Positions 4,126-21,028 of a DNA stretch of 23,749 nucleotides are shown here, one piece after another. Positions within the stretch are counted from its first letter, which is position 1. Each line of letters opens with the position of its first letter. The stretch covers positions 1 to 23,749 of the IMG/VR virus record IMGVR_UViG_3300008117_000991, one strand, 5' to 3'. A program made the translations under genes and the position numbers. The DNA comes from a virus. Below the pieces are notes generated by a model. It worked only from the letters and a program-made list of their open reading frames with translations. It ran no database searches and was not told the DNA's origin.

Positions 4126-4432
4126 TCTATATGTGATTTATCATGAAAAATATCATGCCATCAAGGTAGGTGTGGGGGATATCACAGGTAGAAGGTTTCG
4201 CCAACATAGGGCCAAGGGGTGGGAATTAGTGGCATATTGGTATTTTCAAGATCGGCGGGGATGTAGAAGAATAGAATCTACAGTACTACAAATACTAAGG
4301 GATAAATACGGCTATTACCTACATAAGGAAGACATGCCATATGGGGGCTATACGGAGACATTTGATGCCTCAAAAATAACCAAAAGAAAGATAATTGGTT
4401 TGGTCAATAAATCTATAAAGAAATACACTTAG
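4118..4432 (+). CDS. GIY-YIG-like nuclease-domain protein (putative homing-type or T5orf172-like)
   Basis: 104 residues from the ATG at 4118. The N-terminus LYVIY followed by IKVGVGD at residues 15-21 fits the two short strands of a GIY-YIG core, with Arg25/Arg26 and His30 next and Glu53 (RRIES) in the metal-binding Glu position. The length fits a bare catalytic domain. This start is chosen over the in-frame ATG at 4073 because TATAAT (4106-4111) lies exactly 6 nt upstream and no SD exists. It is the only plus-strand gene among minus neighbours and overlaps the end of the sulfotransferase gene by 20 nt, consistent with insertion of a mobile gene. The key Tyr-Tyr spacing is divergent, so activity is uncertain. 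Confidence 0.68.
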   Translation: MSILYVIYHEKYHAIKVGVGDITGRRFRQHRAKGWELVAYWYFQDRRGCRRIESTVLQILRDKYGYYLHKEDMPYGGYTETFDASKITKRKIIGLVNKSIKKYT

Positions 4433-5045
4433 ACTTGATTTTATCGTATGCCTCGTAAAATTTAAACAAATCTACTTGGCCTACAGCCTCTTTGATAACA
4501 TCATAGCCTGAAGCATTTTTACTACTTACCATATAACCATTCTTATAGTCTTTTAGTTTAGTTTTATATTTTTCTGTTATAATTTTAATATTTAATAAAT
4601 TTGCTATATGACAGGTTGTTTCAAATGGATAAGACACTAGTTGATCATAGTCTACTATTATTTTGCTTTGGCTTGATAGTTTTGTATAATGATCACAATA
4701 TTGGTTAGCCCTATCTTGTATATCTTTTATTTGTAATAATGATATGTCTTCAAAGTTTCTATGTTTTTGCTTTATAGCCATAGTAATGTCTGATATAAGT
4801 AAATCTTTTGGATCCCTGGCTATGGTTATCATTTTGAGTTGACCTATTTCCAACCCGCTCCAAAAACGAGCATTGTTATTTAGAAGGCCTCCAATTGCAT
4901 AACCCCAAGTCTGAGGTTTAGGTTCATGATATTTTAGCACTACATGTCCAGTATGTACAAATAGTCTTTCTTGTAGATAATGACTTCCTGTACGAGGAAC
5001 TGTAACTATTGCCCAATCTTTGACAATGTTCAAGGCATCATTCAT
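4413..5045 (-). CDS. PAPS-dependent sulfotransferase (first of two)
   Basis: 210 residues. Residues 14-27 (VTVPRTGSHYL) form the 5'-phosphosulfate-binding loop, equivalent to YPKSGT in cytosolic sulfotransferases. Residues 71-85 (KMITIARDPKDLLIS) form the 3'-phosphate-binding motif with the R-x-P-x-D-x3-S pattern. A VDYDQL segment near residue 135 matches the conserved YEDL region. Such enzymes move a sulfonate group from PAPS to a hydroxyl or amine on sugars, lipids or tyrosine; the acceptor is not predictable. It is shorter than eukaryotic enzymes (about 280-300) but complete for the core. No SD; TATAGT lies 7 nt before the ATG. Last gene of the modification cassette. Confidence 0.82.
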   Translation of the reverse strand: MNDALNIVKDWAIVTVPRTGSHYLQERLFVHTGHVVLKYHEPKPQTWGYAIGGLLNNNARFWSGLEIGQLKMITIARDPKDLLISDITMAIKQKHRNFEDISLLQIKDIQDRANQYCDHYTKLSSQSKIIVDYDQLVSYPFETTCHIANLLNIKIITEKYKTKLKDYKNGYMVSSKNASGYDVIKEAVGQVDLFKFYEAYDKIKSKCISL

Positions 5046-5048
5046 ATT

Positions 5049-5663
5049 TTATACTATATCGTACCACAATGGTACTGTATATCTTGTTCCAGATATTACG
5101 GTTTTGACTTCATGAGCAAAATTATACGTTCCTGGAAAATAAATCAAATCACCTTTTTTAGGTTTTATTAATAAGTCATGATCTAGAAAATATAATTCTC
5201 CGCCCTCATAGTCATCATTTAAATATATAATGCTGGCTAAAGGACTTGCATTTGGATTACCGATGTCATCTACATGAACTCCTAAACTTGTTCCTGCATC
5301 CCATTTCACTACACAAATTGGTTGATTTGGTCTTGGTATTATTTTTACAGAAAAAGAATTTTCTATTAACGCACCAACTTTGTCAAAAAGCCATGCAAAA
5401 CTTTGCATTGGAGGGCTGTTAAATACTTGAAACCAATTACACTCTTGTCCATTTTCATCCCATTGACAAGGTATTTTCTGTCCATTAAACATTTTTGTAT
5501 AATTTATTAATTCATCACAAGTTTGATAATCTAAAAAATTATTGATAACTATGATATTTTCTTTATTATTGCTTACCCTCTCAAAATACTGTTTATAAGC
5601 ATCAGACCTATCAAAAGAGTCTGGATCATGTCCTATGTCTTTTCCATTTATCTTATAACCCAT
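5049..5663 (-). CDS. 2-oxoglutarate/Fe(II) dioxygenase, prolyl-4-hydroxylase type
   Basis: 204 residues from the ATG at 5663. The double-stranded beta-helix core shows GVHVDD (iron ligands His130 and Asp132), then YLNDDYEGGELYF, the GDLIYFPG strand, NFAHEV with the third iron ligand His184, and GTRYTVPLW with Arg194 placed to bind the 2-oxoglutarate carboxylate. All cofactor ligands are present, so it should be active. It hydroxylates an unknown substrate. The ATG at 5663 is preferred over the upstream GTG because TATAAT lies 6 nt before it and neither has an SD. Flanked on both sides by sulfotransferases. Confidence 0.88.
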   Translation of the reverse strand: MGYKINGKDIGHDPDSFDRSDAYKQYFERVSNNKENIIVINNFLDYQTCDELINYTKMFNGQKIPCQWDENGQECNWFQVFNSPPMQSFAWLFDKVGALIENSFSVKIIPRPNQPICVVKWDAGTSLGVHVDDIGNPNASPLASIIYLNDDYEGGELYFLDHDLLIKPKKGDLIYFPGTYNFAHEVKTVISGTRYTVPLWYDIV

Positions 5664-5683
5664 TTTTATATTATACACTTCAT

Positions 5684-6211
5684 TTAAGGTTTTAATGCTT
5701 TATTTTTTACTTGTTCATATAATTTATTTAATTCTTTTAAATCATATTCTTTGACCTTTTCTTTAACAAGATCATAGTGTGATGACTTAGTGCTGGTTGT
5801 TATATGTTTTTCACTAATATTATCTTGAACTTCTTCAAATGGGGTTTCATTTATTTCAGTTATATTCAATTCTTTAATTAATGTTTTGATAATGCCATCA
5901 GGATTCTGTAGCAAATCTTCATATTTAAATATTATTGCAGGTCTTTTTAACAACTCTGTATAAAAACCAGAATATTTTTTGATTAAGTCAGAAATCTTAT
6001 AAAATTCATCATAATGAGAAAGTTTTGTTGCTTCAGATGTTATTGAGTCTAAAGGATTTCTGACTACAACTATAATGGTACCTTCTACAAAATAATGATA
6101 TTTAGGAAATTGATATCCAGTTTTGGCTACTATCAAATTAGACAGATAAACGCTACCAGATCTGGGATATGTACATATTGAAACTGATTCTATAGTTCTT
6201 AAATTGCTCAT
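5684..6211 (-). CDS. PAPS-dependent sulfotransferase (second, short form)
   Basis: 175 residues. CTYPRSGSVYL (13-23) is the 5'-phosphosulfate loop. TIIVVVRNPLDSITS (45-59) is the 3'-phosphate motif, with Arg51, Pro53, Asp55 and Ser59. IIFKYEDLLQNP (93-104) is a textbook YEDL motif. The spacing between the first two motifs is unusually short, meaning the helical acceptor-binding insert is reduced. Sequence similarity with the 4413-5045 protein is confined to the motifs and a few C-terminal positions (SSHYDLVKE versus ASGYDVIKE), so they are diverged paralogues. The ATG at 6211 has no SD; TACAAT lies 8 nt upstream. First gene of the cassette. Confidence 0.85.
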   Translation of the reverse strand: MSNLRTIESVSICTYPRSGSVYLSNLIVAKTGYQFPKYHYFVEGTIIVVVRNPLDSITSEATKLSHYDEFYKISDLIKKYSGFYTELLKRPAIIFKYEDLLQNPDGIIKTLIKELNITEINETPFEEVQDNISEKHITTSTKSSHYDLVKEKVKEYDLKELNKLYEQVKNKALKP

Positions 6212-10741: not shown

Positions 10742-10768
10742 GAGCAGTTTATACTCTTACTCAGGAGT
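10742..10768 (-). ncRNA. Candidate pseudoknot RNA element, copy 1
   Basis: Minus strand: stem ACTC/GAGT with loop CTGAGTAA, then ATAAAC and TGCTC, which can pair with GAGTA in the loop. Eight T follow almost at once. It begins about 9 nt after the DUF932 gene stop. Confidence 0.6.
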
Positions 10769-10777
10769 TGCGATTAC

Positions 10778-11797
10778 TTACGCAATCGCTAAAGTATTTT
10801 TTACAATACCAAGCAGACGATTTTTTTCTGCTGTAATCATTGGGTCAAATCCAGAAGCAGCAGCGAGCATTGCCTCAGTATTACCACCACGAGCAGACCT
10901 GTGCCAATCAAGGCGTTCAGTTAGAGCATTGAAAGCACCCCAAGCGGTGTTAGCAATCATTCCATTAAATTGACCTGTATAGATGTCATTGATAACATCA
11001 ACCTTATTGGTCCATTTAGTAAGAGCAACTTTCGCTGCGTCTTTGTCAGGCTTAGGATAAGCAGCAAGAACAATATCATTGAACTGTTGCGCTGTAATTT
11101 CTTTTTCAATCATAGCCTTAGCCATAACATCAAAAGCGTCCATATAAGCATTAGCAAGACCAAGAGCCTCACGAGCAATTTGAACCTTGCCGTTAGCGGT
11201 CTGTGTATGACGAATCTTGAATGATTGCTTGATAGCGTTCTTGCCACGCTTAGAACCAAGAGCAAGATTAAGAGTGTTAGCGCATACAACACGAACGGGT
11301 GTTATTGACGCTTGAATAGCAATAGAGCCATCGTGGCTTGTGTTGATAAGTAAATAAGTTTTTACTTTATCCGCAACACCATTAGGGTCTAATACTGTTT
11401 CACGCTCAAGAGCAAGAGAGCCGAATACTACACGCCCTCCACGAATTGAACCAGCGGTTTCCCAGCGACCTCCGCCGTCTAGGATATTATCACCGAATGA
11501 AAATAAATCTTCATTCTGTAAAACATGATAACGCTCACCGACAACACCGAGAACATCGGTCTGTGTGTTATCCGTAGGGTTAGTGCGAACAACATATTGA
11601 TAAGCCTTATCTGATGTAAGGGTATTTGGAATCTCAACATCAACCAATCTAACATTCCAATTATTTAGATTAGCAGCAGCAAGCATTTCGCTTGTTGTTT
11701 TTTCTTCTGAGAAAACTGTGCCAAGACCATGCCAAGCAGGTTCTCTAAAAGAAGCAAATGAAGCAACGCCATTTTGCGTTTCTAATTCATGAGCCAT
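10778..11797 (-). CDS. DUF932 / TIGR03299 phage-plasmid-like protein
   Basis: 339 residues, the usual length. The N-terminus MAHELETQNGVASFASFREPAWHGLGT is characteristic of TIGR03299, and the DUF932 core follows (VVGERYHVLQNEDLFSF, GGRVVFGSLAL, VCANTLNLAL). It ends with a Trp-rich C-terminal segment (NTAWGAFNALTERLDWHR) typical of the family. Such proteins are abundant on phages and plasmids, soluble, and of unknown molecular function; some are linked to DNA metabolism by context. GGAAAGGA lies before the ATG, with a promoter at 11825-11853. One of the most confident calls in the window. Confidence 0.95.
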   Translation of the reverse strand: MAHELETQNGVASFASFREPAWHGLGTVFSEEKTTSEMLAAANLNNWNVRLVDVEIPNTLTSDKAYQYVVRTNPTDNTQTDVLGVVGERYHVLQNEDLFSFGDNILDGGGRWETAGSIRGGRVVFGSLALERETVLDPNGVADKVKTYLLINTSHDGSIAIQASITPVRVVCANTLNLALGSKRGKNAIKQSFKIRHTQTANGKVQIAREALGLANAYMDAFDVMAKAMIEKEITAQQFNDIVLAAYPKPDKDAAKVALTKWTNKVDVINDIYTGQFNGMIANTAWGAFNALTERLDWHRSARGGNTEAMLAAASGFDPMITAEKNRLLGIVKNTLAIA

Positions 11798-11824
11798 TTT
11801 TTTCCTTTCCGTAGTGTTTTAATA

Positions 11825-11853
11825 AGTTTATCATAAGATACTGACAAAATCAA
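11825..11853 (-). promoter_or_regulatory. Promoter of the DUF932 gene
   Basis: TTGATT (11848-11853), 17 bp, TAAACT (11825-11830). GTTACGAAC (11887-11895), a variant of the ATTACGAAC box, lies 33 bp above the -35. Confidence 0.7.
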
Positions 11854-11933
11854 GTTTAGTTTGTAAATTGGGGCAAATCGGACATCGTTCGTAACTTGAC
11901 AAATTAAACAAGATCGGTTCGAAATTTGAGGTG

Positions 11934-11961
11934 GAGCAGTTTTAAGACATGCTCAGGTCTT
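11934..11961 (-). ncRNA. Candidate pseudoknot RNA element, copy 2
   Basis: Minus strand: AAGAC/GTCTT stem, loop CTGAGCAT, linker AAAAC, then TGCTC complementary to GAGCA in the loop. Located 14 nt after the stop of the gene ending at 11976. Confidence 0.65.
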
Positions 11962-11975
11962 GGATAGCCCTACTA

Positions 11976-12440
11976 TCACGCTTTATAGATATTATCTATC
12001 TCAACATCAACATCTCCGTCATATGAACTTAGTTCAGCATAAACATTTAAGTCAATATCACTAACATCAAAGTTAGCAACTTCATCTAACGGAACTGATA
12101 TTGTTCCTCTAATTGTGGCGGTAGCCTCAAATTCAATTTCCTTAGTAGGATTAAATCCAAATATACTACAAATATCAGCAACGATTTCCTCTGAATCCAT
12201 ATCAAGGTAATCAGGTAGGCGACTTTCTAACATAGTCACTTTTTGAGTATATCTATTAAGTTCTCGGCTTTCTCTGCGGTATTGGTGTAATTCCCACTCA
12301 AGGTCGCTAACCTTTACTGTTGGATACCAATTTGTATAGTCGCTTGGTAGCGAACCAGAATCAGAATCAATAATCTTATAGGTTACGATTTGATTAGGGT
12401 TGTAGTGTGCTGGCACTACTATTTCATTAGTTGTTTCCAT
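11976..12440 (-). CDS. Hypothetical two-part protein, 154 residues
   Basis: The N-terminal half has a helix (about 48-75, Arg/Glu-rich, coiled-coil-like). The C-terminal half (about 98-150) is acidic and strand-rich (TATIRGTISVP, then alternating Asp and hydrophobics). The ATG at 12440 follows GGAAAGGA, and the start overlaps the previous gene by 14 nt. I recall similar C-terminal domains in actinophage proteins, without a function. Confidence 0.82.
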   Translation of the reverse strand: METTNEIVVPAHYNPNQIVTYKIIDSDSGSLPSDYTNWYPTVKVSDLEWELHQYRRESRELNRYTQKVTMLESRLPDYLDMDSEEIVADICSIFGFNPTKEIEFEATATIRGTISVPLDEVANFDVSDIDLNVYAELSSYDGDVDVEIDNIYKA

Positions 12441-12702
12441 TTTCAATATCCTTTCCCATTGAATCCATTTCTTTTATTGTTTCTAGCATATCATTTATTT
12501 GGCTTTCGGTCAAGCAGGCGTGAGTTACTAGAGTAGCGGTCATCGCTGATAAGTGAGCAGAATACATAAACATCGCTTTTACGAAATCGTCCTCACTTAA
12601 TTCGTGTCTGTGATGAAAAATAGCAGCAGCCATTCCCATAACTTCCTCATCGTGAACGGCATCGCTTGTTGCCTCTTGTATTGCTAATGCGGTTGATATC
12701 AT
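12427..12702 (-). CDS. Hypothetical helical protein, 91 residues
   Basis: All-helical, Met-rich, with Ala-rich helices and HHRHE in the middle. The ATG at 12702 is chosen because AAAGGAAAG lies just upstream and a promoter follows at 12734-12762; the longer frame to 12789 runs through that promoter. A perfect TGTGA-N6-TCACA dyad lies upstream (12782-12797). No family recognised. Confidence 0.78.
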   Translation of the reverse strand: MISTALAIQEATSDAVHDEEVMGMAAAIFHHRHELSEDDFVKAMFMYSAHLSAMTATLVTHACLTESQINDMLETIKEMDSMGKDIENGNN

Positions 12703-12733
12703 TAGGGCTTTCCTTTCTTTTGGGTATTTATTA

Positions 12734-12762
12734 AGTTTAGCATAAATATGGCAAAAATACAA
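12734..12762 (-). promoter_or_regulatory. Promoter with upstream CRP-like dyad
   Basis: TTGTAT (12757-12762), 17 bp, TAAACT (12734-12739). The -35 matches at only three or four positions, as at activator-dependent promoters. Confidence 0.68.
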
Positions 12763-12781
12763 ATCCTGCCGTAAAGCCTCG

Positions 12782-12797
12782 TGTGACAATTCTCACA
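12782..12797. promoter_or_regulatory. Perfect CRP/GlxR-like operator
   Basis: TGTGA-CAATTC-TCACA. Its centre is 55.5 bp from the -10 of the promoter at 12734, about -62 from the start site, a class I activator position. Confidence 0.68.
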
Positions 12798-12814
12798 TTT
12801 TCGAAATTTTTTGG

Positions 12815-12843
12815 GAGCAGTTTATTGTCATACTCAGGACAAT
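12815..12843 (-). ncRNA. Candidate pseudoknot RNA element, copy 3
   Basis: Minus strand: stem ATTGTC/GACAAT (6 bp), loop CTGAGTAT, linker AAAC, then TGCTC pairing with GAGTA through one G-U. It follows a structured untranslated stretch. Confidence 0.62.
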
Positions 12844-12923
12844 CTCTCTAAGGGACTTTCGCAACAAGATCAACACAATCTAGTTTTGTGTCGCAGGTTG
12901 CCTTGAACACAAGAGAGAAAAAG
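12844..12923 (-). other. Structured non-coding stretch before pseudoknot copy 3
   Basis: No gene. On the minus strand CTCTCT near 12920 can pair with AGAGAG near 12848, and inside it CACAA/TTGTG forms a hairpin. With copy 3 this gives about 100 nt of likely folded RNA placed after a terminator, so it may be a separate small RNA. Confidence 0.4.
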
Positions 12924-12966
12924 TTGTGGCGGGGCAATTGCGATTACACATTCAAAACCGCCACAA
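12924..12966 (-). terminator. Intrinsic terminator of the 12972 gene
   Basis: TTGTGGCGG and CCGCCACAA form a perfect 9-bp stem with a 25-nt loop, followed on the minus strand by a short T-run. It starts 5 nt after the stop. Confidence 0.65.
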
Positions 12967-12971
12967 TTCTA

Positions 12972-13139
12972 TTAGTAAGTTTTTACCATAGCAAATCTTG
13001 TTTGGTTATTTGCTAAGCGTAGCATTACCTTAGTGACATTTCTAGTTTGTGGCACAAACTTTTCAATGCGACCTGTAATACCTGCTTTAGAAGTAGTGAA
13101 TAAATCGCCTACTCTGTAAGTATAGCCTCCAAGGGTCAT
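12972..13139 (-). CDS. Small SH3-barrel-like protein, 55 residues
   Basis: YTYRVGDLFTTSKAGITGRI at the N-terminus and a strand-rich remainder resemble a small KOW/SH3-like barrel. It is a paralogue of the 13750-13917 product, which reads YKVGDTYTSQKSKITGTI at the same place. GAAAGGA lies before the ATG. Probably binds nucleic acid or protein; function unknown. Confidence 0.75.
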   Translation of the reverse strand: MTLGGYTYRVGDLFTTSKAGITGRIEKFVPQTRNVTKVMLRLANNQTRFAMVKTY

Positions 13140-13168
13140 TTTGTTCCTTTCTGTATTGGGTTAATACA

Positions 13169-13197
13169 ATTCTAACATTTTTTGGTGGGGGAGTCAA
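13169..13197 (-). promoter_or_regulatory. Promoter overlapping a GC hairpin
   Basis: TTGACT (13192-13197), 17 bp, TAGAAT (13169-13174). The -35 lies in the loop and arm of the GGGGGAG/CTCCCCC hairpin. Confidence 0.68.
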
Positions 13198-13209
13198 ATA
13201 CCCTCCCCC
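13187..13209 (-). terminator. GGGGGAG/CTCCCCC hairpin after the 13219 gene
   Basis: Perfect 7-bp stem, 9-nt loop, 10 nt after the stop. There is no T-run, so termination may be partial; it overlaps the next promoter. Confidence 0.5.
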
Positions 13210-13218
13210 TTTGCTCAA

Positions 13219-13641
13219 TTAGAGATAACGAGCGATAGTGTTGTAAGTAGAAGTGGAAACTGTTTCCTCATCTGTCATCTTGAGAATACGAATTGCGTTC
13301 TCAATTTCATCTACCATTTCTTTATACTGCCACTCTTGGAAAGACTCAAAATCTTTCTCAGGTTCAGTAGGTAGGTCAATAGCACCTTTAGGTAGGTTGA
13401 AATCAACATTTACGCTTCCGTTGTAGCGGAGATTAGCAGATAAGTCCTCTGCCTTGTTGATAGCAGATAGAGCGAGTTTAGCAACATCTTTGCGCCACTT
13501 TTCGTGAGCCTTCTGATACTTCTCCTCATTTACTTTTTGATTAGCCTTATCTTTCTTGAGTTGGGCTAACTTAGTTTCTAATGCCGTGATTACTTTGGTT
13601 GTAGCAATCTTGACATTTATACTTTTGCCATTTCTAGCCAT
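13219..13641 (-). CDS. Hypothetical Lys-rich coiled-coil protein, 140 residues
   Basis: A basic helical N-terminal two-thirds (about 1-65, many Lys and Glu in heptads) is followed by a short strand region (VNVDFNLPKGAI) and an acidic C-terminal helix. GAAAGGAAAA lies before the ATG at 13641. Similar in style to actinophage proteins of unknown role. A coiled coil and DNA contact are inferred from composition only. Confidence 0.85.
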   Translation of the reverse strand: MARNGKSINVKIATTKVITALETKLAQLKKDKANQKVNEEKYQKAHEKWRKDVAKLALSAINKAEDLSANLRYNGSVNVDFNLPKGAIDLPTEPEKDFESFQEWQYKEMVDEIENAIRILKMTDEETVSTSTYNTIARYL

Positions 13642-13668
13642 TTGTTTTCCTTTCTGTTTGGGGTATCT

Positions 13669-13697
13669 ATCCTAGCATTTCTAAGATAAAAAATCAA
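13669..13697 (-). promoter_or_regulatory. Promoter of the 13219 gene
   Basis: TTGATT (13692-13697), 17 bp, TAGGAT (13669-13674). The -35 begins 3 nt after pseudoknot copy 4. Confidence 0.65.
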
Positions 13698-13700
13698 GTT

Positions 13701-13729
13701 GAGCAGTTTTAACAGACTTGCTCAGGTCT
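13701..13729 (-). ncRNA. Candidate pseudoknot RNA element, copy 4
   Basis: Minus strand: AGAC/GTCT stem, loop CTGAGCAA, linker GTTAAAAC, then TGCTC matching GAGCA in the loop (six pairs with the next A). 20 nt after the stop of the gene ending at 13750. Confidence 0.65.
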
Positions 13730-13749: not shown

Positions 13750-13917
13750 TTACTTTGCTGTCCAAGTTGTCCAGCGTGGTGAGCCATTGACATCTAACTT
13801 GACACGAACAGTTGTTCCGTCTTTGCTAGGCTTGATTTCGGTGATAGTGCCTGTAATCTTAGACTTCTGTGAAGTATAAGTGTCGCCTACCTTGTAAGTT
13901 GCGGTTGCTACTGACAT
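13750..13917 (-). CDS. Small SH3-barrel-like protein, 55 residues
   Basis: YKVGDTYTSQKSKITGTITEI then basic strands, ending RWTTWTAK. Paralogue of the product at 12972-13139. The ATG at 13917 has AAAGGAG 6 nt upstream; the longer frame to 13995 crosses the promoter and has no ribosome site. Possibly nucleic-acid-binding (KOW-like); unproven. Confidence 0.78.
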   Translation of the reverse strand: MSVATATYKVGDTYTSQKSKITGTITEIKPSKDGTTVRVKLDVNGSPRWTTWTAK

Positions 13918-20220: not shown

Positions 20221-20239
20221 TTTTATGGGGGAAACTACA

Positions 20240-21028
20240 ATGACGCCAAAGTCTATATACGACATTGATTTAAATTCTGCAGAAGGAAATTCTGATTTTT
20301 TAAAACAATACAAAGGTAAAGTAACAATGATAGCAAACACAACAGTTGGTTGTGGAAATGCTAATCAACTAGAAGTTCTTCAGTGGCTTCAGGAAAAGTA
20401 CCAAGATCAAGGATTTGAAATCATTGGTGTTCCTACAAATGACTATTGTGGTCCAGGAATTACTAGAGGAAAGTGGGCAGATGGAATTACTTGCGGTCTA
20501 GACTCAAAGGCTTATGGAGAAGATGTTTACGGAACAACATTTAATTACTCTGAAATGGTTTCTTCAAATCCACACGAAAAGTTTTATGAAATATATCCTC
20601 ATGCTAACGATAATCACGAAAGACGTCAACCTCATGAGTTGTATGTAGAAATTTCATCACAGATGAAGGCTTTACGGGATATGAAAGAGCATTTAGAAGA
20701 CTCAAATGTAGAAGGAAAATTCATGCCAACCAGTGGGTTCAACATTGGTTTTTATGATCAAGTTGACATGGGTGGAAACTACGAAAAGTATCTTATTGAT
20801 AAAGATGGATATGTCATGAAACACTTTGCAAACAAATCCTTAAACTACGATGCTGAGAAAACACTCAAAGAGTCATTAATGGCAGAAGGACACTCTGAAC
20901 CTTTTGCACAGCATGGTGGCAGAACAATTGAAACATTTAACGAAGAATACAATTTTGTTTGTTCTGAAATCGAAAAAGCAATTGCAGGAGCAAGATCTGC
21001 ACTTAATCCAAGTTTAGTAAAAATTTAA
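20240..21028 (+). CDS. Glutathione-peroxidase-like thiol peroxidase
   Basis: 262 residues from the ATG at 20240, with GGGGGA 7 nt upstream; 20225 is a weaker start. SIYDIDLN, YKGKVTMIANTTVGCGNANQ (Cys38 at the peroxidatic position), YQDQGFEIIGVPTNDYCG and KYLIDKDGYVMKHF follow the GPX fold. Of the family's catalytic tetrad (C, Q, W, N), Asn180 is kept, but the Trp of WNF is Gly179 and the Gln near NDY is Asp. Extra Cys70 and Cys85 could be resolving Cys. A long insert (about 86-165) and a C-terminal extension are unusual for GPX (about 160). It may relieve oxidative stress in the infected host, or be a non-peroxidase relative. Confidence 0.85.
   Translation: MTPKSIYDIDLNSAEGNSDFLKQYKGKVTMIANTTVGCGNANQLEVLQWLQEKYQDQGFEIIGVPTNDYCGPGITRGKWADGITCGLDSKAYGEDVYGTTFNYSEMVSSNPHEKFYEIYPHANDNHERRQPHELYVEISSQMKALRDMKEHLEDSNVEGKFMPTSGFNIGFYDQVDMGGNYEKYLIDKDGYVMKHFANKSLNYDAEKTLKESLMAEGHSEPFAQHGGRTIETFNEEYNFVCSEIEKAIAGARSALNPSLVKI

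Follow-up and report, generated by a model that had tools for sequence, protein, structure and literature searches.

What is the short element that recurs between the genes of the virus behind IMG/VR record IMGVR_UViG_3300008117_000991, and what might it do for the messages that carry it? The stretch analysed here (the window) comprises positions 1 to 23,749 of that record, and a first-pass annotation made from its letters alone had pointed to four minus-strand copies of a compact H-type pseudoknot, for which it considered three roles: blocking exonucleases, aiding termination or sensing a ligand. Judged by sequence comparison, the structure and the family are solid, and the RNA family is real, widespread and, as far as our searches reach, undescribed. 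Among the three roles, blocking of exonucleases is the best fit to the genomic context, while ligand sensing received no support and termination may apply to about one copy in four, namely those with T-rich tails.

Results

The pseudoknot is a module of ∼27 nucleotides (nt) built from a first stem (S1) of 4–6 bp with a C-G closing pair, a first loop (L1) of sequence CU, a second stem (S2) of 5 bp, one junction base and a third loop (L3) that ends in AAAC. Its conserved core consists of the C-G closing pair, the CU of L1, the outer G-C and inner A-U pairs of S2, and AAAC. As this core pattern alone could match by chance, S1, which lay outside the search pattern, was used as the test for family members: of the 98 matches spanning 23 nt, viral or from the window, 81 had at least four S1 pairs, with ∼2% expected at random. 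For S2, IMG/VR was searched with patterns that shut out the window's own base pair. A complementary replacement pair occupied position 3 in 125 of 126 matches (A-T in 108, C-G in 10, T-A in 7) and position 2 in 122 of 122, there always as G-C; the extra matches of the position-4 pattern, mostly one coding sequence without S1 pairing, were discarded. Across an alignment of 149 sequences (A3), 97.2% of cells were paired and both sides had changed in 284 cells, compared with 92.7 ± 6.4 after shuffling and no more than 73 with the partners slid. By these comparisons, covariation proves both stems, and the two interleaved helices, each with covariation of its own, make an H-type pseudoknot. The annotation had named a lack of homologues with compensatory changes as grounds for abandoning its proposal; the outcome was the opposite for both stems. 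The U-G wobbles of GAGUA/UGCUC are present in the sense strand, and the pairing molecule is therefore the RNA of the coding strand.

Within the window, the core CTGAGYA-N-AAACTGCTC matches four times, always on the minus strand (10742–10764, 11934–11956, 12815–12837 and 13701–13725), exactly where the annotation had placed it, with a chance expectation of 0 in 100 dinucleotide shuffles of the window. As had also been read correctly, each copy has an S1 of its own that changes sequence yet pairs, together with the CU of L1, the 5-bp S2 (GAGYA/UGCUC) and an L3 of 4–8 nt (Table 1). A covariance model whose training sequences came mostly from other phages recovered all four copies (E = 1e-8 to 1e-10), and its scan of the window found no fifth. 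The claim that each copy follows a stop codon stood for copies 1, 2 and 4, which begin 9 nt past the stop codon of the DUF932 gene, 14 nt past that of the gene at 11976–12434 and 20 nt past that of the open reading frame (ORF) at 13750–13917, respectively; it failed for copy 3, whose nearest gene stop codon lies ∼130 nt upstream. The counterpart of copy 3 in the relative L090 adjoins a stop codon directly. The stably folding stretch before copy 3 is a candidate structured RNA, predicted to end in this pseudoknot. Directly after copy 1 there is a U8 tract. Placement before a promoter, likewise proposed, holds at the level of a consensus match only, with TTGnnn-17-TAnnnT beginning 3–80 nt downstream of every copy.

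Table 1. Pseudoknot copies and neighbouring features in the window
Feature	Coordinates	Strand	Description
Pseudoknot copy 1	10742..10768	minus	S1 ACUC/GAGU, L1 CU, S2 GAGUA/UGCUC, L3 AUAAAC; covariance model E 8e-10
Pseudoknot copy 2	11934..11961	minus	S1 AAGAC/GUCUU, L1 CU, S2 GAGCA/UGCUC, L3 AAAAC; E 1.2e-10
Pseudoknot copy 3	12815..12843	minus	S1 AUUGUC/GACAAU, L1 CU, S2 GAGUA/UGCUC, L3 AAAC; E 2.5e-9
Pseudoknot copy 4	13701..13729	minus	S1 AGAC/GUCU, L1 CU, S2 GAGCA/UGCUC, L3 GUUAAAAC; E 1.5e-8
Stably folding noncoding stretch	12844..12972	minus	Between a 55-codon ORF and copy 3; minimum free energy -38.4 vs shuffles -26.4, z -3.6
DUF932 (phrog_1221) gene	10778..11797	minus	Ends just before copy 1
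Promoter-like TTGATT-17-TAGGAT	13669..13697	minus	After copy 4; consensus match only

Beyond the window, the core pattern was found at more than 120 loci among the IMG/VR matches listed, and a stricter pattern at 105 loci in GTDB genomes (about 100 contigs), so that the element is shared by hundreds of phages without close kinship. Since one exact pseudoknot sequence (25 specified bases) alone occurs in 57 IMG/VR contigs, the whole family probably amounts to thousands of copies, with up to seven per phage genome. Named carriers, whose copies were checked by eye, include the cyanophages S-RIM4 and S-EIV1 (the latter with one S2 mismatch), Paracoccus phage ParKuw1, Lentibacter phages ICBM2 and ICBM3, Roseobacter phage SIO1, Celeribacter phage P12053L, Rhizobium phage RHph_Y65, Lactobacillus phage phiAQ113, Lactococcus phage Q33, mycobacteriophage Labelle, Moraxella phage Mcat1, the crAss-like cr7_1 and cr124_1, and gut phage NatCom_3357. 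Besides the crAss group, this covers phages of cyanobacteria, alphaproteobacteria, lactobacilli, lactococci, mycobacteria and Moraxella. Phages of enterobacteria, pseudomonads and vibrios, which make up a large part of the phage collection, were absent from the best matches in the named-phage searches; Vibrio matches are putative, being matches to the pattern, and those in an Erwinia phage and in Pelagibacter phage Eyrgjafa failed the pairing test. Because a class-wide search of bacterial genomes (274 and 301 genomes) yielded just a few matches, most of them lacking complementary stems, the element is rare in chromosomes.

Rfam 15 returned no gathering match in the window except a tRNA, and no match overlapping the knots even at E values up to 10; neither did any of 20 related loci match at the knot. 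No Rfam covariance model, be it of preQ1-I, SAM-II or another riboswitch family, accounts for the element, and together with the covariation of both stems this strongly supports the annotation's view of a compact H-type pseudoknot that is neither preQ1-I nor SAM-II. An earlier description was not found in the literature searched, a coverage outside of which most subscription papers and preprints lie. Transfer-messenger RNA and RNase P were considered and rejected as the origin of conserved flanks (L002, L131 and others), which consist of phage noncoding RNA and short ORFs instead.

A two-stem scan of 4.3 Mb of fetched DNA matched 529 times with CT as L1 and 21–80 times with each other dinucleotide, and filtering left 433 distinct copies. 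For those between two called genes, the upstream gene lies on the same strand in 290 of 316 cases. An ORF of ≥50 codons stops near 332 of the 433 copies, and in these the onset of S1 peaks 4–7 nt after the stop (mode 5), almost never falling closer than 4 nt; a separate set of 44 copies of one exact sequence has such a stop in 35 cases (mode 5–6). The distance from knot to next start is broad (17–295 nt). The tight spacing on one side and the loose spacing on the other bind the knot to the end of the upstream message rather than to the next start, and 39 convergent copies have no downstream gene on that strand at all. The knot's location directly 3' of coding sequences is what the function class of messenger RNA (mRNA) 3'-end stabilisers calls for. 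UAA makes up 66% of the stops before the knot (background 46%) and UGA 12% (background 32%). The upstream genes are varied (74 PHROGs among 101 proteins), the commonest being of the DUF932 family (18 of 101 sampled genes), which also precedes copy 1.

Two families of short ORFs accompany the knot. At ten loci (L131, L137, L139, L154, L182, L187, L191, L193, L156, L210), short chromosomal ORFs of ∼18–20 codons encode MKRFxIPRxAHCxEGC-like peptides in Aminicenantes, Deltaproteobacteria and others, and stop in or beside the knot, often at the UGA of C-UGA-GC. Selenocysteine insertion was rejected for copies with UGA inside the knot, as the extensions differ and stop soon. ORFs of the second family (MRWMFPHATHCSACGSMR-like; L158, L175, L207, L219, L222) stop one or two bases short of the knot, and a terminator-like hairpin follows.

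In 26 of the copies, a tRNA (Asp, Lys, Arg, Asn, Met, Leu, Ala or Gly) begins 2–13 nt downstream, whereas in none of the 433 does a tRNA end in the 50 nt upstream. For junctions of 30–200 nt, the knot is present in 23/53 gene-to-tRNA, 177/1209 gene-to-gene and 1/41 tRNA-to-gene junctions (Fisher p = 1e-6 and 2e-6). The crAss-like cr124_1 has the same layout, with a tRNA-Val ∼5 nt after the knot.

Some copies (∼30 by eye) form the ends of untranslated RNAs or leaders. The seven contigs aligned as A1 have in common a promoter-like TATAAT and three hairpins that show compensatory changes, with the knot as the 3'-terminal element, and one contig (L214) has two such RNAs in succession, each with a terminal knot directly before the next promoter-like sequence. 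Noncoding RNAs that end in the knot thus favour a 3'-end role without need of translation. Phage noncoding RNAs of the A1 type, ∼110 nt long, are found at L002, L004, L053, L068, L079, L102, L112 and L214, with no Rfam match in the two loci tested. Other arrangements were seen as well. At L152 (2824–3006) the knot lies immediately 5' of a DUF2800 RNA (RF02960), as it may at L163, L183 and L235, judged there by sequence likeness only. In Firmicutes siphophages (L095, L098, L141, L216, L509, L510) the knot, sometimes preceded by a terminator-like hairpin, is followed by an apparent conserved structured leader and then scaffold and major head genes. The leaders of cyanophage-like contigs (L024, L027, L038, L057, L061, L100, L111) run from a TATAAT that lies at the upstream stop or beyond it, through one or two hairpins and the knot, to a Shine-Dalgarno sequence (SD) and start codon.

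The complete pseudoknot was further encountered in CRISPR spacers. A type III-A array (L565; CP054675.1, 1029054–1038717) contains it in 5 of its 139 spacers, all on one strand and with different flanks, and other such spacers occur at L177, L223 and L138; the knot seems to be a favoured broad CRISPR target. The L565 array is accompanied by Csm-type genes, Cas10 and a Cas1 without fused reverse transcriptase, and RNA-derived spacers were rejected on the latter ground.

Messages of the window that lack the knot end instead in strong G+C hairpins, namely GUGGCGG...CCGCCAC at 12923–12966 and, without a U-tract, GGGGGAG...CUCCCCC at 13177–13210 (both minus strand). The regions 4413–6211 and 20225–21028 encode two sulfotransferase-like proteins, one 2OG-Fe(II) oxygenase-like and one glutathione-peroxidase-domain protein, an unusual phage cargo. 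As the nearest syntenic relatives seen (L200, L220) are contigs of actinobacterial metagenome-assembled genomes, the phage likely has an actinobacterial host.

Discussion

The explanation we favour, albeit at somewhat under even odds, is that the pseudoknot blocks 3'-to-5' exonucleases and stabilises the upstream message. Phages put the knot at the 3' ends of messages and of certain noncoding RNAs, where it would stop enzymes of the PNPase and RNase R/II type; transcripts ending or cut downstream would be trimmed only as far as the knot, the stop codon and reading frame would stay intact, and a longer half-life may result. The knot stands as near the stop codon as the terminating ribosome probably permits, and translation would not need to unfold it. 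Where a tRNA follows, an RNase P cut at the tRNA 5' end would make the knot the last structure of the mRNA. There is an engineered precedent in compact pseudoknots (evopreQ1, the M-MLV knot) that, appended to engineered prime-editing guide RNAs (pegRNAs), protect 3' ends from exonucleases (PMC10754014).

Several observations weigh against such protection. CU, AAAC and parts of S2 are more invariant than simple stability would require, the knot bears a likeness to the coremin element, which stops a 5'-to-3' enzyme, and the T-rich tails in a quarter of the copies suggest help with termination. Half of the tRNA cases represent one tRNA-Asp layout, without which the share drops to ∼9/35, near the gene-to-gene share, so that the enrichment over gene-to-gene junctions is weaker than it looks; the asymmetry to tRNA-to-gene junctions stands. 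None of the 44 copies in the separate exact-sequence set has a tRNA next to it. In Firmicutes siphophages and some cyanophage-like contigs, moreover, the knot precedes an SD and gene and comes after terminator-like or leader hairpins, a layout that also suits a 5' element.

More tentatively still, the knot might be a universal, portable RNA '3' cap', i.e. one fold used by phages of several bacterial phyla that would arrest 3'-to-5' decay just after the stop, would replace hairpin terminators at mRNA and small-RNA 3' ends, and would matter enough for one type III CRISPR array to hold five separate spacers against it.

It is unlikely that the knot instead blocks 5'-to-3' decay, in bacteria by RNase J, and protects the downstream gene like the exonuclease-resistant RNAs (xrRNAs) of plant viruses. 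RNase J is present in most host taxa of the named phages, and some copies lie in leaders before an SD. The layout also recalls the coremin xrRNA of Beny-, Cucumo-, Hypo- and other RNA viruses (Dilweg et al. 2023, PMC10520033): both have a short hairpin with a C-G closing pair, a Y-G...A-D-like loop, UUAAACU right after the hairpin and a 3'-untranslated region (3' UTR) or intergenic position, and a CGAGUAA loop, tested in coremin, stalls Xrn1 (PMC10520033). The coremin spacer UUAAACU has its equivalent in A3, where AAAC-U is invariant and mostly preceded by U or A. The loop register differs: coremin's YGAD or YGNNAD requires G as the second base, whereas the A3 loop CUGAGYAW (C-UGAGYA-W) begins with C-U. 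Coremin has a second, downstream hairpin where the phage knot apparently has a 5-bp loop pseudoknot instead, the 3' strand of S2 pairing with the loop and tRNAs or SDs following closely, and it belongs to RNA viruses, unlike the knot of DNA phages with its free hairpin sequence. What speaks against a block to RNase J is that the position is fixed to the upstream stop and not to the downstream start, that the knot is nearly absent from tRNA-to-gene junctions, and that the convergent copies have no gene to protect downstream.

A pseudoknot-type transcription terminator or attenuator would explain why T climbs to ∼42% between positions +2 and +9 past S2 and drops at +10, why TTTT lies within the first ten bases of 94 of 419 copies but in 5–20 in later windows, and why the window copies stand at transcription-unit ends. 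As a general account it is improbable, given that ∼75% of copies have no T-rich tail and that full termination would silence the tRNAs beginning a few nucleotides downstream. Neither are T-rich tails linked to unit ends: they occur in 29% of copies with an SD and start within 45 nt downstream, compared with 25–26% elsewhere and 13% of convergent copies. G is depleted across the first eight downstream bases generally.

The proximity to the stop could also reflect a barrier ahead of the terminating ribosome that curbs readthrough or sliding after termination, or influences how termination and re-initiation proceed. The onset of S1 corresponds to about the entry-channel distance, UAA is enriched, and coremin stalls scanning ribosomes (PMC10520033). 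We nevertheless give this idea little credence, as noncoding RNAs also carry the knot and several chromosomal copies have a UGA inside the knot itself.

Poorer still are the prospects of recognition by some host protein or small molecule that is widely conserved, such as an RNA-binding regulator, a processing nuclease or a riboswitch ligand. It would account for the invariance of CU, AAAC and the closing pairs, and RNWUU, the RNase E-like cut consensus, directly follows the knot in 19% of copies, compared with 1–9% at other offsets. Speaking against it are the diversity of the upstream genes, the number of copies per genome, the very broad host range and the fact that no common downstream gene was seen. 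Lastly, a recoding signal (frameshift or stop-codon readthrough), which the pseudoknot and its spacing resemble, can be dismissed with near certainty, as slippery heptamers lie near the stop in only 7 of 332 cases, UGA is depleted and in-frame extensions are shorter than background (median 8 vs 10 codons).

Other known pseudoknots and 3'-UTR elements resemble the phage knot in part. H-type pseudoknots of the luteovirus and gene-32 types have a short L1, little or no junction and an A-rich L3, as does the phage knot; the latter differs in its 5-bp S2 and in its location after stops without a slippery site and not upstream of an autoregulated gene. Enterobacterial REP/BIME elements likewise recur in 3' UTRs or between genes and are believed to protect the 3' ends of mRNAs; they are chromosomal hairpins tied to RAYT transposases, whereas the phage element is a pseudoknot. 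The preQ1-I riboswitch aptamer and the engineered 3' cap evopreQ1 are H-type pseudoknots of similar size with an A-rich L3, yet preQ1-I has other conserved bases and, unlike it, the phage knot occupies 3' UTRs in many unrelated operons. The ToxI/AntiQ antitoxin pseudoknots of type III toxin-antitoxin systems are small, too (about 34–36 nt). They form tandem repeats beside a toxin gene (for ToxIN, see PMC3475682), an arrangement not seen for the phage knot.

In summary, the present work describes a covariation-proven RNA family with very many phage copies that Rfam release 15 does not list, its small size and pseudoknot fold being the probable reasons. Should the knot stall RNase J or ribosomes instead of 3'-to-5' exonucleases, DNA phages would possess a device akin to an xrRNA. 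If it does protect 3' ends, it would reveal a general means by which phages counter RNA decay in the host, supply RNA engineering with a compact natural 3' cap, and mark the 3' UTRs and transcription-unit ends of phages.

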